Shown piece after piece: positions 13,682 to 17,941 of a DNA stretch of 23,261 bases. The notes beneath the pieces are model-generated. The model was not told the origin of the DNA. It saw only the letters and a list, made by a program, of their open reading frames with translations, and ran no database searches. Origin of the DNA: a virus; the IMG/VR virus record IMGVR_UViG_3300042876_000220, positions 1-23,261 of that record. One strand, given 5' to 3'. A program made the translations under genes and the position numbers. Position 1 is the first letter of the stretch, and each line of letters opens with the position of its first letter.

Positions 13682-14358
13682 CAGTAGCCGGTGACCATCC
13701 GGTTGCCACCCGCCGTTCGGGGGTGGAGGTCGTACCGGGCGAGCGTGTCCCGGTCACGCCCGGAGACGTAGCGCGACACGATCGGCTTGCCGAACTCATC
13801 CGAGCCGATGACGTCGGTCTGCCCCGCCTGGCGGGCGTGCCATGCCCGCACGACGGCCGTGATCGCAAGCTCGGCGATCTCGTCAGGGATGGCGGGCCAG
13901 CCCGCAAACCCCGCGGAGCCGCGGAGCCGGACGTTGCCGTAGCCCGGATAGAAGCGTCCCGCCTGGTTCGTCGGCGAGGGGATGTCGGTCATGCGAATGA
14001 CCGTGGCCGGCCAGCCCTGACGCCGCAGGATGGGCAGCGGGCGGAGGAAGCAGTCCGTGGCCGGGACCGTGACGAACGCGCCCCCGGTCTGGGGCGCCAC
14101 CTCGAGTGACGTCAGGCCGTTGAGCCCGAACGGCACGGGCATCACCCGGCCGTCCTCTTCGGCCATGAGCCCGTCCAGGACGATCTCCGTGTCTGCCCGC
14201 GGTGCGATCACCCGGCCCGTGGTCGTCTCGATCCATGCGTTGATCTGCCCGCACAGCGTGGTGATGAGCGCGTCGTCGGCGGCGCTGTAGGTCGCGTCCG
14301 AGCCGAGCCGGGCCTTGACCAGCGCCAGCGTCGCGTAGGTACCGATCGCGGTCGTCAC
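13681..14358 (-). CDS. Head-tail connector (adaptor, gp6/gp15-like)
   Basis: A 225-residue protein from GTG at 14358, with GAGGA about eight bases before. It begins with the helices of siphovirus adaptors (LALVKARLGSDATYSAADDA, LITTLCGQINAWIETTTGR); 'v+..lg......D..l..li..a...ie..tgR' is the connector signature. A central beta region and a C-terminal helix (EIAELAITAVVRAWHARQAG) follow, again as in adaptors, where this helix docks on the portal. It normally follows the capsid gene closely; here six other genes intervene. Confidence 0.75.
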   Translation of the reverse strand: MTTAIGTYATLALVKARLGSDATYSAADDALITTLCGQINAWIETTTGRVIAPRADTEIVLDGLMAEEDGRVMPVPFGLNGLTSLEVAPQTGGAFVTVPATDCFLRPLPILRRQGWPATVIRMTDIPSPTNQAGRFYPGYGNVRLRGSAGFAGWPAIPDEIAELAITAVVRAWHARQAGQTDVIGSDEFGKPIVSRYVSGRDRDTLARYDLHPRTAGGNRMVTGY

Positions 14359-14445: not shown

Positions 14446-14745
14446 CTACGCAAGGTCGAACCTCCGCCGCCAGTCGCGGACCGTGCGGGGTGAGCGATCC
14501 AGCTCTTCGGCGAGCGCCTCGACGGTGGGCTCGGCTCCGCGCCCGGTGACGACGGCCCGCGCCGCGGCGTAGCGCTCGCGGATGGCCGTGGCGTCGAGGG
14601 CTGGCCGGCCTTCGTCGTGCCGCTCGACAGGCACCTCGACGCCACGTTGAAACCACGGCCGGACGGGATCGGCGGCGCACTCGTCACACCGGTCCCGCGA
14701 GCAGGTGAGCAGGCCGCACCAGCCGCACCGGATCCGCTCGCTCAT
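14446..14745 (-). CDS. Zinc-ribbon plus helix-turn-helix protein, 99 aa
   Basis: The ATG at 14745 overlaps the DUF616 gene's stop. Cys7, Cys10, Cys15, Cys20 and Cys23 form a compact zinc site, and the last 30 residues (TVEALAEELDRSPRTVRDWR) are a clear helix-turn-helix with a basic end. It thus looks like a small DNA-binding protein, perhaps a regulator or a recombination-directionality-like factor, inside the structural operon. It is coupled to the glycan cassette and separated from the adaptor by 87 bases, so it probably travels with the cassette. No known family name comes to mind. Confidence 0.65.
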   Translation of the reverse strand: MSERIRCGWCGLLTCSRDRCDECAADPVRPWFQRGVEVPVERHDEGRPALDATAIRERYAAARAVVTGRGAEPTVEALAEELDRSPRTVRDWRRRFDLA

Positions 14746-15362
14746 GGCTTCCACACGTCGGGTTCGATGTGCCGACCCCAGCGCACCCAGCCCGCATCCA
14801 TCGGCGAGGTGTCGAACCATCGGTAGCGGACGTCGCTCCGGCGCAGGAGGACAGGCAGGCTCAGCTGGTCCTGGAGCGTCCAGCGGGTGATCTCGCCCCA
14901 CCACGCATCCATGAGGGCACGAACGGCTGGCGTGTTTCGGCGGACCAGCATCCCCGCGTGCATGAGCCCCCAGTGCTCGGGATGCCCGGCCCGCTTGTAC
15001 GCGCATGCCTGGTCGAGGATCGGCTGGCCGTCGTACTTGGCGAGGTGGATGCTGACCGCGGCCTCTTCGTAGATGTCGTCGCGGTTGGGGTGGCGGATGA
15101 AGATGGCATCCGCATCGCCCAGGGCCTGCTCGCATCGTTCCGCGAGGTCCGGCACGAGGACATCGAACGACCCATCGATCCAGACCGTGATGTCGGCGTC
15201 AGGGCAGGCGAGGTCGGGCCGGACCTTCCACCACTTGGCTGCAAGCCGCGGATCGGCATACGGCAGCGGGTGGGTCGCGTCCGTGAACAACCGGACCGGG
15301 ACGGGCTGTGGCCGGATCGTGTCGAACCCGCCATAGACCGCGCTGTAGATCACGGTCGTCAC
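14742..15362 (-). CDS. DUF616-type (TOD1/MUCI70-like) glycosyltransferase
   Basis: The 206-residue product begins VTTVIYSAVYGGFDTIRPQP, the start typical of DUF616 proteins, and continues with VRLFTDA, WWKVRPDL and VWIDGSFDVL (60-69), where the WIDGS aspartate is the usual metal/nucleotide-sugar ligand. IRHPNRDDIYEEA and a later WTLQDQLSLPVLL segment are also family-like. The family is a GT-A-type group of glycosyltransferases. GTG at 15362 overlaps the preceding stop (GTGA), so it is translated with the cassette. Its acceptor (capsid protein, host glycan, or another sugar) is unknown. Confidence 0.75.
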   Translation of the reverse strand: MTTVIYSAVYGGFDTIRPQPVPVRLFTDATHPLPYADPRLAAKWWKVRPDLACPDADITVWIDGSFDVLVPDLAERCEQALGDADAIFIRHPNRDDIYEEAAVSIHLAKYDGQPILDQACAYKRAGHPEHWGLMHAGMLVRRNTPAVRALMDAWWGEITRWTLQDQLSLPVLLRRSDVRYRWFDTSPMDAGWVRWGRHIEPDVWKP

Positions 15363-16090
15363 GGGAGGCGCTCCAGCCCGGCCTTCGCTGTCCAGTCCCG
15401 CCACCACGCCGCCAGGTCCCCATCCGACAGCGCGCCCCACTGGCGCCAGTGCCGCCCGACCTCGACGGGGGCACCGGCCGCCTCGAGGGCCGCGCGCCCG
15501 TGGCGGAGCTTGGCCGTTGCCTGGGGCAGGGAGCGGTACGGGTAGTGGCGGATCCCGAGGACGTGATGCGCCTCGCGCTGGGTACCGCTCACCTCGTGGG
15601 CACCGGCCGAGAGTGTTCGTCCGGGAAGCGGCCGGAAGGCGACCTTCGTGAACGCGCTCGTGGGTTCGCCCGGGCGGTAATGGACGATCCGCTGGAACGG
15701 GTTCGGCCACGCCCAGTCAGTCCGACGCGGGACCATGGTCCATTGGCCTGCGCGGACCGAGTCGTATCCGGGGTCGAGCGCGTCAAGCACAGCGCCGATC
15801 CGCCCGCCCGTCGCATACCACCACTCGTCCGCGTCGAAGGGCAGGATCCAGTCGGCACCATCCGCGGCCGCCGTAAGACGGGCGAGGACCGCTACCTGAT
15901 CGAACGCGAACCCCGGCTCATCGATGACCGTCAGGCGGGGGTCGGATATCGATCCGAGCAGCTCGCGCGTGCCGTCCGTGCTTCCGTTGTCGGCGACGAT
16001 CACGGCATCGCACTCATCGAGCATGTGGCGCACGACCCAGCCGATGACGTCGCCCTCGTTATGGACGCACGAGATCGCGGTCACGCTCAC
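15359..16090 (-). CDS. Family 2 glycosyltransferase
   Basis: A 243-residue GT-A enzyme from GTG 16090, overlapping the methyltransferase stop (GTGA). HNEGD (10-14) and DNGSTDGT (34-41) form the nucleotide-sugar site, and DADEWW (86-91) supplies the DxD-type metal ligand. HHVLGIRHYPYRS near 190 resembles the acceptor-side motif of this GT2 subgroup ('H..HY.yRS'). The length is standard for a minimal GT2 domain and no membrane segment is present, so it acts in the cytoplasm on a protein or soluble acceptor. It may build the first or a later sugar of the glycan made by this cassette. Confidence 0.85.
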   Translation of the reverse strand: MSVTAISCVHNEGDVIGWVVRHMLDECDAVIVADNGSTDGTRELLGSISDPRLTVIDEPGFAFDQVAVLARLTAAADGADWILPFDADEWWYATGGRIGAVLDALDPGYDSVRAGQWTMVPRRTDWAWPNPFQRIVHYRPGEPTSAFTKVAFRPLPGRTLSAGAHEVSGTQREAHHVLGIRHYPYRSLPQATAKLRHGRAALEAAGAPVEVGRHWRQWGALSDGDLAAWWRDWTAKAGLERLP

Positions 16091-16842
16091 TGGCCGACCG
16101 CTTTGGCGATGATCGCGAGGCCGTTCGCGTCGGCATAGGCAGCCGGGCCACGGACGAAGTCGTCGTTCAGGCTCACCCACTGCGGGGGTTCGGGCAGGGA
16201 GCCGATCCACTCGTGGAGCCCGGCCCGAACGCCGCCCTCTCCGGTCGCGTCCCACTGCGCCGCGAACTCGCTGGAGTCATGGAGGACCAGCATCCCGCCC
16301 GGCGCGAGGGAGGCGTGCCACATCGGCAGCTCGACCAGCGTCTGCCCGCGCTCGTGGGACGTGTCAAGGAAGACGAGCTCCGGGGCGCACCCGAAATGCT
16401 CCCGGACGGTCGCCTCCGAGGTGGAGTCGCGGCTGTCGCCGAGGACGATCCGAACGTACTCGCCGAGGTCGGCTCGCGCGATCCAATGGGCGGCGCGCTC
16501 GGTCGCAGCGGGGTCGATATCGAATGAAATCAGGCCGCCCCGAGCGCCCATCCGGCGGAGCATGAAGCCCACCAGGAGCGTGGTGTAGCCCTCGTACCGG
16601 CCGAGCTCAACGATCCGGCGCAGCCCGCCGCCTTCGATCAGCCCGTGGAGCACGCCGATCCCGGGCACGTTCAGCTCGCCCGGGCCGATCCCGGTCCAGG
16701 TCCACCACTCCTCCATGACCGTCCACTCGTCATCGGTCAGGAGCGCGAAGACGGGCGGCACATACCCGTTCCCCGGCAGCCGTGCCCACCAGTGGCGGGG
16801 ATGACTGTCCGCCAGTCGGGCCCATGCTTCGCGTCGGGTCAT
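16087..16842 (-). CDS. Class I SAM-dependent methyltransferase (Methyltransf_24/CmcI-like)
   Basis: The 251-residue protein starts at ATG 16842, overlapping the previous stop (ATGA); an apparent upstream extension lies inside that gene and was dropped. The Rossmann motifs are in order: IVELGRYEGYTTLL (77-90, SAM loop), SFDIDP (106-111, ribose-binding acid), LGDSRD (134-139), LVFLDTSHE (156-164) and PGGMLVLHDSS (181-191). The 'LD..H' and 'GG...hDs' elements are typical of the CmcI/Methyltransf_24 group, whose members often methylate sugars. With glycosyltransferases on both sides, O-methylation of a sugar is the likeliest role. Confidence 0.8.
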   Translation of the reverse strand: MTRREAWARLADSHPRHWWARLPGNGYVPPVFALLTDDEWTVMEEWWTWTGIGPGELNVPGIGVLHGLIEGGGLRRIVELGRYEGYTTLLVGFMLRRMGARGGLISFDIDPAATERAAHWIARADLGEYVRIVLGDSRDSTSEATVREHFGCAPELVFLDTSHERGQTLVELPMWHASLAPGGMLVLHDSSEFAAQWDATGEGGVRAGLHEWIGSLPEPPQWVSLNDDFVRGPAAYADANGLAIIAKAVGQ

Positions 16843-17282
16843 GGCTTGACCAGGAGGGCGTGGCCTTCCTGTCCCCATTCGCACTCGCGGACCGACCAAT
16901 CGGCCATCCGCCAATACCGGATCCCGTAGTCCGCGCCAGGGACGATGGCGCCGGTGAAGTAGTCGAACGACTCCCGAACCCAGACCGAGACGTGGGTCGG
17001 ATCCGCCACCCATCCCCAGCCGGCCCCGAACAGCGGCACGACCACCTCGAACTCGGCCCCCGGCGCGAGGACGCGCCATACCTCGTTCATGACGGCGATC
17101 CGATCGGCGGCCGGGATGTGCTCAAGGAGGTGAGAGCAGCGCGCCCGGGCGACCGATTCCGACGGCAACGGGATGCCGTCCTGGATGCGACGTTGGAACT
17201 CGCCCTCTCCGTGGACGGGATCGAGGTTGAGGTAGCCCCGGCTCGGGGTTTTGCCTCCCCCGATCTCCAGCTTCACATCCAC
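16839..17282 (-). CDS. Small class I SAM-dependent methyltransferase (Methyltransf_11-like)
   Basis: The 147-residue protein is read from GTG 17282, overlapping the preceding gene by ten bases. KLEIGGGKTPSRGYLNLDP (4-22) gives the SAM-binding glycine loop and the acidic residue; RCSHLLEHIP (48-57) and EVWRVLAPGAEFEVVVP (67-83) are the next Rossmann motifs. Proteins opening 'kLelGgG....GyinlD' are common in polysaccharide clusters, usually around 180-220 residues, so this is a compact form. Together with the adjacent methyltransferase it suggests two methylation steps on the glycan. Substrate is inferred only from neighbours. Confidence 0.8.
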   Translation of the reverse strand: MDVKLEIGGGKTPSRGYLNLDPVHGEGEFQRRIQDGIPLPSESVARARCSHLLEHIPAADRIAVMNEVWRVLAPGAEFEVVVPLFGAGWGWVADPTHVSVWVRESFDYFTGAIVPGADYGIRYWRMADWSVRECEWGQEGHALLVKP

Positions 17283-17941
17283 TGCTGTCGCTCGATCTTG
17301 GTCATGATCTCCACCGTGTGCGCGCCGTTGTTGGTCCCGCTCCGGCCCATCGCCCGGATGCGGGCGTGGCCGGCGAGTTGGCCGTCAACCGGGGTGATGG
17401 GGATGCCGGCGTCCAGACAGCGGCGGAAGAAACCGATGTCCTGGCCCCCGTACTCGGAGGGGCGCTGCATCTCGCGCAGCGTCCGCGTGCCGTCGGGGTG
17501 GCGGTCAATGGCGTAGGTGATGTCGGTTCGGAACCACGGGCGTTCGATCATCTCGAACACCTCGCGCCGGATGAGGGTGGCGCCGAGGCCGCACCAGTAG
17601 ACGTGACCCGTGTCATCGCGCGAGATGCAGGCCCACGACGGACGCTCGCCGACGGGGTAGTCGATCGCGGCTATGAGGGCCTCCGCCGTGAACGATGCGA
17701 CCAGCGCATCGTCGGCCGGGACCATGTCCTCTTCGACGAACCACAGGGCCTCGGCACCCGTGGCAAGGCCGGCCTCCGTGACGGCGTTGTCGCAGTCGGG
17801 GATGGGGAGGTCATGCGTCAGCCGCCAGCCACGGAACTCGTGACCGGCGGCTGACGCCGCGGCGACGTTCGCCATCACGGCCTCGATCGTCCGGGAGTGG
17901 ACGAGGCCGCGGGAGGGCGTCAGGACCGCGAACGAACCCAT
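17273..17941 (-). CDS. GT-A-like glycosyltransferase directly after the capsid gene
   Basis: A 222-residue protein beginning MGSFAVLTPSRGLVHSRTIE. Strand-helix spacing, ALWFVEEDMVPADDAL (65-80) with an acidic EED metal site, CGLGATLIRREVFE (117-130) and GGQDIGFFRRCLDAGIPI (165-182) match phage GT2-like enzymes, in which the last motif supplies the catalytic acid. The ATG at 17941 is thirteen bases after the capsid stop, but that spacer is C-rich with no Shine-Dalgarno sequence. Translation is therefore probably weak or dependent on ribosomes finishing the capsid gene. As the first cassette gene and capsid neighbour, it could attach the first sugar to capsid protein; that is a hypothesis. Confidence 0.7.
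   Translation of the reverse strand: MGSFAVLTPSRGLVHSRTIEAVMANVAAASAAGHEFRGWRLTHDLPIPDCDNAVTEAGLATGAEALWFVEEDMVPADDALVASFTAEALIAAIDYPVGERPSWACISRDDTGHVYWCGLGATLIRREVFEMIERPWFRTDITYAIDRHPDGTRTLREMQRPSEYGGQDIGFFRRCLDAGIPITPVDGQLAGHARIRAMGRSGTNNGAHTVEIMTKIERQQWM

Follow-up and report, generated by a model that had tools for sequence, protein, structure and literature searches.

A glycosyltransferase and methyltransferase island beside the capsid gene of an uncultivated phage, and its probable role in virion glycosylation

The window described here, meaning the whole stretch of DNA analyzed, is IMG/VR record IMGVR_UViG_3300042876_000220, a fragment record of 23.3 kb with 69% G+C. Its structural genes are arranged on the minus strand in the order terminase, portal, scaffold, capsid, island, head–tail adaptor, and tail genes. 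The island is a coupled run of five genes, named gtA, mt1, mt2, gt2, and duf616, that encode three glycosyltransferases (GTs) and two methyltransferases. It is probably a virion-glycosylation module, which would furnish an O-methylated glycan chiefly to the capsid. Loci used for comparison are numbered with the prefix L.

Genes of the island and their enzymes

The island and its bordering genes are as follows.

18872–17955, minus strand: major capsid protein, 305 amino acids (aa); phrog_283 (E = 1e-31), Phage_capsid_4 above cutoff
17941–17273, minus strand: gtA, predicted GT-A glycosyltransferase, 222 aa; profile, Foldseek, VIA-align, and AlphaFold2 (AF2) model
17282–16839, minus strand: mt1, short S-adenosylmethionine (SAM)-dependent methyltransferase, 147 aa; Methyltransf_11 just under cutoff, phrog_6636
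16842–16087, minus strand: mt2, O-methyltransferase-like SAM enzyme, 251 aa; PF13578 (Methyltransf_24)
16090–15359, minus strand: gt2, family-2 glycosyltransferase, 243 aa; PF13704 and PF00535
15362–14742, minus strand: duf616, TOD1/MUCI70-type glycosyltransferase, 206 aa; PF04765, phrog_26101 (glycosyltransferase)
14745–14446, minus strand: sixth coupled gene, 99 aa, with paired Cys motifs and a C-terminal helix-turn-helix (HTH); HTH_23 above cutoff
14358–13681, minus strand: head–tail adaptor, the downstream border of the island; phrog_442 (E = 4e-12)

The capsid protein is a distant homolog of that of phage Che8 (profile E = 3e-35), and 13 bases separate the end of its gene from the start of gtA. 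Along gtA–mt1–mt2–gt2–duf616, the genes overlap by 10, 4, 4, and 4 bases. The initial annotation of this DNA had described five open reading frames in this order and on this strand, coupled by overlaps of 4–10 bases, placed right after the capsid gene, and encoding three GTs of different families together with two distinct methyltransferases. Coordinates and position hold, and so do the enzyme classes, as judged by Pfam and PHROG profiles and the gtA fold model. The same annotation had the cassette directly abut the connector; this needs correction, since the 99-aa gene intervenes and the adaptor starts only at 14358. The sixth gene overlaps duf616 by 4 bases and has two viral relatives that were found, in L013 and L222. 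In L013 (order capsid, hth, adaptor), the homolog fills the slot between capsid and adaptor in a locus where no glycosylation genes are present. The gene is therefore treated as belonging to the head operon and is probably not a member of the glycosylation set.

Ratios of nonsynonymous to synonymous substitution (dN/dS) of 0.09–0.32, obtained for the cassette genes from related contigs, indicate purifying selection and, thus, that the reading frames are real genes. G+C content and G+C at third codon positions (GC3) of the interval are typical of the genome; hence, composition gives no mark of recent cargo or import. At the nucleotide level the interval had no match among GenBank phages, a promoter and terminator scan gave nothing useful above chance, and no membrane segments were found in the five cassette proteins.

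Profile evidence for gt2 is above the curated cutoffs (PF13704, E = 1e-12; PF00535, E = 1.5e-9), with a further match to GmaR at 1e-4, and 110 relatives occur in viral contigs. The duf616 product matches PF04765 above cutoff (E = 5e-10) and has relatives in L034 and L088, where they lie in other glycosylation clusters.

Of the two methyltransferases, mt1 scores 20.6 bits against Methyltransf_11 at a cutoff of 21.2, and its homolog in L048 passes with 26.9. The mt1 model, with a predicted local distance difference test (pLDDT) score of 72, resembles type-11-like methyltransferases at a Z of about 10; it matches many methyltransferases and names no substrate. Methyltransf_24 recognizes mt2 above its curated cutoff (E = 3e-17), followed by Methyltransf_3 (E = 4e-6), with RMNT_CmcI below cutoff. 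The PDB matches of mt2 are the putative O-methyltransferases 8c9s (2e-6) and 5lhm (1e-5), and no relatives of it were found in viral contigs. A second methyltransferase family, different from mt1, is present in the sister cassettes of L007, L044, and L047, and the L047 member matches MycE (E = 1e-27) and TylE, a demethylmacrocin O-methyltransferase (4e-18). MycE and TylE act on deoxysugars attached to macrolides. This match makes sugar O-methylation the likeliest chemistry of the sister cassettes, and by analogy the window cassette may methylate sugars as well. L047 additionally encodes an NTP_transf_3 protein, a putative sugar nucleotidyltransferase.

The gtA family and its changing neighborhood

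No Pfam family matches gtA. An alignment of 35 members served as the basis of an AF2 model that shows a GT-A fold at a pLDDT of 96. The nearest solved relative is A197 of Sulfolobus turreted icosahedral virus (STIV; PDB 2c0n), and three methods agree on this: A197 matches the profile of the gtA alignment at E = 2.3e-8, ranks first in Foldseek with the gtA model (E = 6.6e-8), and superposes in VIA-align with a Z of 17.7 over 164 residues at a root-mean-square deviation of 2.5 Å. After A197 come the collagen glycosyltransferases LH3 and COLGALT1, mimivirus R699, and polysaccharide synthases. Among the 35 members, E70, D72, and D168 are invariant and E71 is nearly so. The first acidic motif aligns with the DED site of A197, and D168 would, by its position, be the counterpart of A197 Asp151. 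On this basis, gtA is predicted to be a GT-A glycosyltransferase with a DxD-type metal motif and a second catalytic acid. The PHROG family phrog_1574, to which no function is assigned, is matched by 25 of the 35 members and weakly by the window gtA itself (E = 0.008). A197 is essential for STIV; the capsid protein of that virus carries glycans, and A197 has been proposed as the enzyme that adds them (PMC10551542).

Profile searches found relatives of gtA at 45 or more viral loci and, among 84,980 cellular species, on a single contig in a Shapirobacteria bin (L039); both scans used short conserved patterns, so that both counts are lower bounds. On the Shapirobacteria contig, a gene close to gtA matches a phage glucosyltransferase family, and the contig is possibly a viral one in the bin. 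A single-sequence search of plasmids found no gtA, and the protein had no match among GenBank phages. Clustering at 90% identity gives 44 groups, among which the window and the Shapirobacteria contig are counted. Of these 44 clusters, 33 have an identified capsid gene in the same locus, and in 28 it lies at most 1.5 kb away; three PHROG families (phrog_283, phrog_267, and phrog_10) are represented among the linked capsid genes. The gtA family is linked to the capsid and restricted to viruses.

The company of gtA varies. Relatives of the window capsid gene were compared in loci L003–L014; across the whole set of loci, some short ones (e.g., L006, L011, L042, and L043) were read with six-frame profile searches. 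In L004, the adaptor directly follows the capsid gene, with no cassette there, and L011 has gtA alone. In L005 and L006, gtA follows the capsid gene, and the portal–scaffold gap holds a GT2; L003 is built likewise and adds another putative GT without a Pfam match. In L009, gt2–gtA lies between portal and scaffold, and the same gap holds mt1, the MycE-like methyltransferase, a GT–gt2 fusion, and gtA in L007. Another block is annotated in L047, between capsid and adaptor: GT2, mt1, the MycE-like methyltransferase, another GT, gt2, the NTP_transf_3 protein, a gtA–GT fusion, and GT1. L044 has the same layout, and in both the capsid gene is of another family than that of the window. L046, L048, and L052 contain mt1, a further putative GT, gt2, and gtA. 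L046 and L052 lie together on the 64.5-kb contig IMGVR_UViG_3300044904_000088, which holds two diverged copies of a capsid gene with mt1–GT–gt2–gtA and represents either tandem phages or a chimeric assembly.

Seen from mt1, gtA is present in 7 of 8 contigs having mt1 at 50% identity or more (duplicates merged); in the eighth, L088, two duf616 genes and an epimerase take its place. The gt2 scan reveals that other phages, such as L169 and L192, have wider multi-GT blocks a few kilobases downstream of the capsid gene. In these uncultivated phages, several putative GTs, some without a Pfam match, lie between head–tail connector genes (L169 3883–7681 and L192 3981–7472), each block with a gt2 relative. 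In sum, gtA is the near-constant member, mt1 and gt2 recur with it, and mt2 and duf616 are rare elsewhere or confined to the window. Comparison across relatives, which the initial annotation had set as a check on its proposal, shows that the five genes are not gained and lost together: gtA stays and the rest vary. Nor is the position fixed: there are two insertion points, portal–scaffold and capsid–adaptor, and the block, thus, lies on either side of the scaffold–capsid pair.

Proposed pathway, candidate acceptor, and alternatives

In the proposed pathway, the structural proteins and the five enzymes would be made together, late in infection, in the cytoplasm, as the observed gene coupling suggests. 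The capsid linkage of gtA and its relationship to A197 suggest that gtA, drawing on a host nucleotide-sugar, attaches the first or a core sugar to the capsid protein. The gt2 and duf616 enzymes may then extend the glycan, and mt1 and mt2 could O-methylate sugar hydroxyls and thereby cap it. The finished glycan would coat the capsid surface, shielding the particle or altering what binds to it. A dedicated pathway for an O-methylated virion glycan, as initially put forward, remains the best reading, supported by the kinship with A197, the MycE/TylE-like sister enzyme, the nucleotidyltransferase of L047, the lack of membrane segments in the cassette, and a gtA family that is capsid-linked and virus-restricted; the set is, however, not a fixed unit, and its arrangement is not new.

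The likeliest acceptor would be the window capsid protein. Mycobacteriophage glycans have been reported to sit at the C termini of the capsid and tail-tube proteins (PMC12619734), and the window capsid protein ends in LLLKS. In a survey of 14 reference phages, which left out MaAM05 (one unlinked GT2, capsid protein ending in Ala), the capsid protein ends in Ser in 6/6 phages with a Che8-gp110-type enzyme versus 1/8 without (Fisher p = 0.005, the phages not being independent). Endings listed for phages with this enzyme are SDGS, KGDS, IAGS, and EPAS, and the tail-tube proteins of the six also all end in Ser. Among the gtA-linked capsid proteins, a hand tally finds a terminal Ser in 23 of 33, at a base rate of about 10%. 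A serine at the very C terminus of the capsid protein is, as a weaker guess, the acceptor, and we offer it as a lead.

The glycan could instead be attached to another virion protein, such as the tail tube or a decoration or collagen-like protein, which we consider unlikely. The tail tube is among the glycosylated mycobacteriophage proteins (PMC12619734); some gtA relatives lie among tail genes; and LH3 and COLGALT1 modify collagen and stand among the nearest structural matches after A197. Collagen-like genes do occur at related loci: one with GAT/GPT repeats directly follows gtA in L006 (6265–6594), and another, encoding a GXY protein with a Pfam Collagen match, lies in the head operon of L007 (863–1288). 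However, the capsid gene is the neighbor in most gtA clusters, no collagen-like run was found in the window, and the putative tail-tube protein of the window ends in Pro, not Ser.

A role in altering the host cell envelope, for instance for serotype conversion or superinfection exclusion, is improbable. Conversion of the gtr type requires a membrane flippase and a membrane-bound transferase, and neither is among the five proteins, although envelope-modifying phage GTs are well known and GT2 enzymes are common in such systems. The genes are moreover locked into the head operon, and the cellular collection in which gtA was met just once includes prophages. Hypermodification of phage DNA with methylated sugars is less probable still. 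There are viral GTs that glycosylate modified bases (cited in PMC12619734), but no base-modifying gene was recognized among the scanned proteins of the window, itself a fragment, the nearest structures are protein and polysaccharide GTs, and no linkage to replication genes was seen. Equally improbable is a set of independent cargo genes (morons) at permissive gaps without a joint pathway, which would fit the differing members and the two insertion points but not the recurrence of mt1, gt2, and gtA together beside head modules of different capsid families, the tight overlaps, or the purifying selection.

Several points weigh against virion glycosylation centered on the capsid. The glycan, its sugar, and its target are predictions from the genes. 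Ten viral gtA clusters lack an identified capsid gene in the locus, some of them being among tail genes. The best matches of mt2, a candidate sugar enzyme, are generic O-methyltransferases, and the acceptor of A197 itself is unproven, the STIV capsid protein being a proposal (PMC10551542). Of the gtA-linked capsid proteins, 10/33 lack a terminal Ser, which is present in several relatives where no gtA was seen. Finally, the window enzymes give no significant profile or blastp match to Che8 gp108–110 or Firecracker gp33–36, the reported glycosylation sets of two phages; the window cassette is therefore classed as a functional analog and not as a member of that gene family.

A broader reading can be held only tentatively: gtA enzymes may form a family of protein O-glycosyltransferases that is exclusive to viruses and linked to the capsid, occurring in tailed phages of three capsid types as well as in an archaeal turreted virus. 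They would start a virion-protein glycan, possibly on the capsid C-terminal Ser, with phage-specific accessory enzymes extending and O-methylating it; in that case virion glycosylation would be widespread among uncultivated phages rather than special to mycobacteriophages. If true, this virus-restricted, capsid-linked family would mark glycosylated virions across many uncultivated phages, phrog_1574 would gain a function, and tailed phages would be connected with an archaeal virus having a glycosylated capsid. The family would also provide a simple marker and, in the C-terminal serine, an acceptor prediction. Sugar shields bear on particle recognition and are, thus, relevant to phage ecology and therapy.

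Comparison with known systems

Virion glycosylation in phages has been reported recently, mainly for mycobacteriophages. In cluster O phages, the stretch between portal and protease holds an O-methyltransferase and three GTs, for which capsid modification was already suspected in 2015 (PMC4351075). This arrangement is confirmed in the genomes of Firecracker and Catdawg, with which the cluster O comparisons were made. Corndog gp38 and Che8 gp110 are described as essential for capsid glycosylation (PMC12363180). Hence, a methyltransferase with GTs in a head operon has a precedent in the Corndog group.

Corndog gp35–gp38 and Firecracker gp33–gp36 resemble the window island in combining an O-methyltransferase and three GTs inside the head operon, with capsid glycosylation reported. 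They differ in their portal–protease position, in having one methyltransferase rather than two, in lacking a gtA/A197-type enzyme, and in their capsid family. Che8 gp108–gp110 (cluster F) likewise comprises GTs and a TylF/Methyltransf_24 domain, which is fused in gp108, and the Che8 capsid protein is homologous, distantly, to that of the window; unlike the window island, the set lies at the right genome end, far from the capsid gene. Firecracker gp33, gp35, and gp36 are homologous to Che8 gp108–110 at 47–56% identity. These homologous sets (Che8, L038 4172–6674; Firecracker, L206 3941–6693) are placed differently in their genomes, and the phages that carry them have capsids of different families; the Che8 methyltransferase forms a fusion with a GT2 domain. 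In Streptomyces phage Keanu, whose capsid protein is a distant relative, a gene shortly after the capsid gene is annotated as a methyltransferase (L208 4932–5411), and no GT2 or GT25 family match was found in its genome.

MycE and TylE resemble the second methyltransferase of L007, L044, and L047, unlike the mt2 of the window, which is a Methyltransf_24-type enzyme. STIV A197 is, like gtA, a small single-domain viral GT-A enzyme, and it comes from a virus with a glycosylated capsid; unlike gtA, it belongs to an archaeal turreted virus, and the two share about 20% identity. To our knowledge, A197 does not sit in a cassette with methyltransferases. The kind of cassette is, thus, already known, and the differences here lie in the enzymes, in the gtA family, and in the presence of two methyltransferases.

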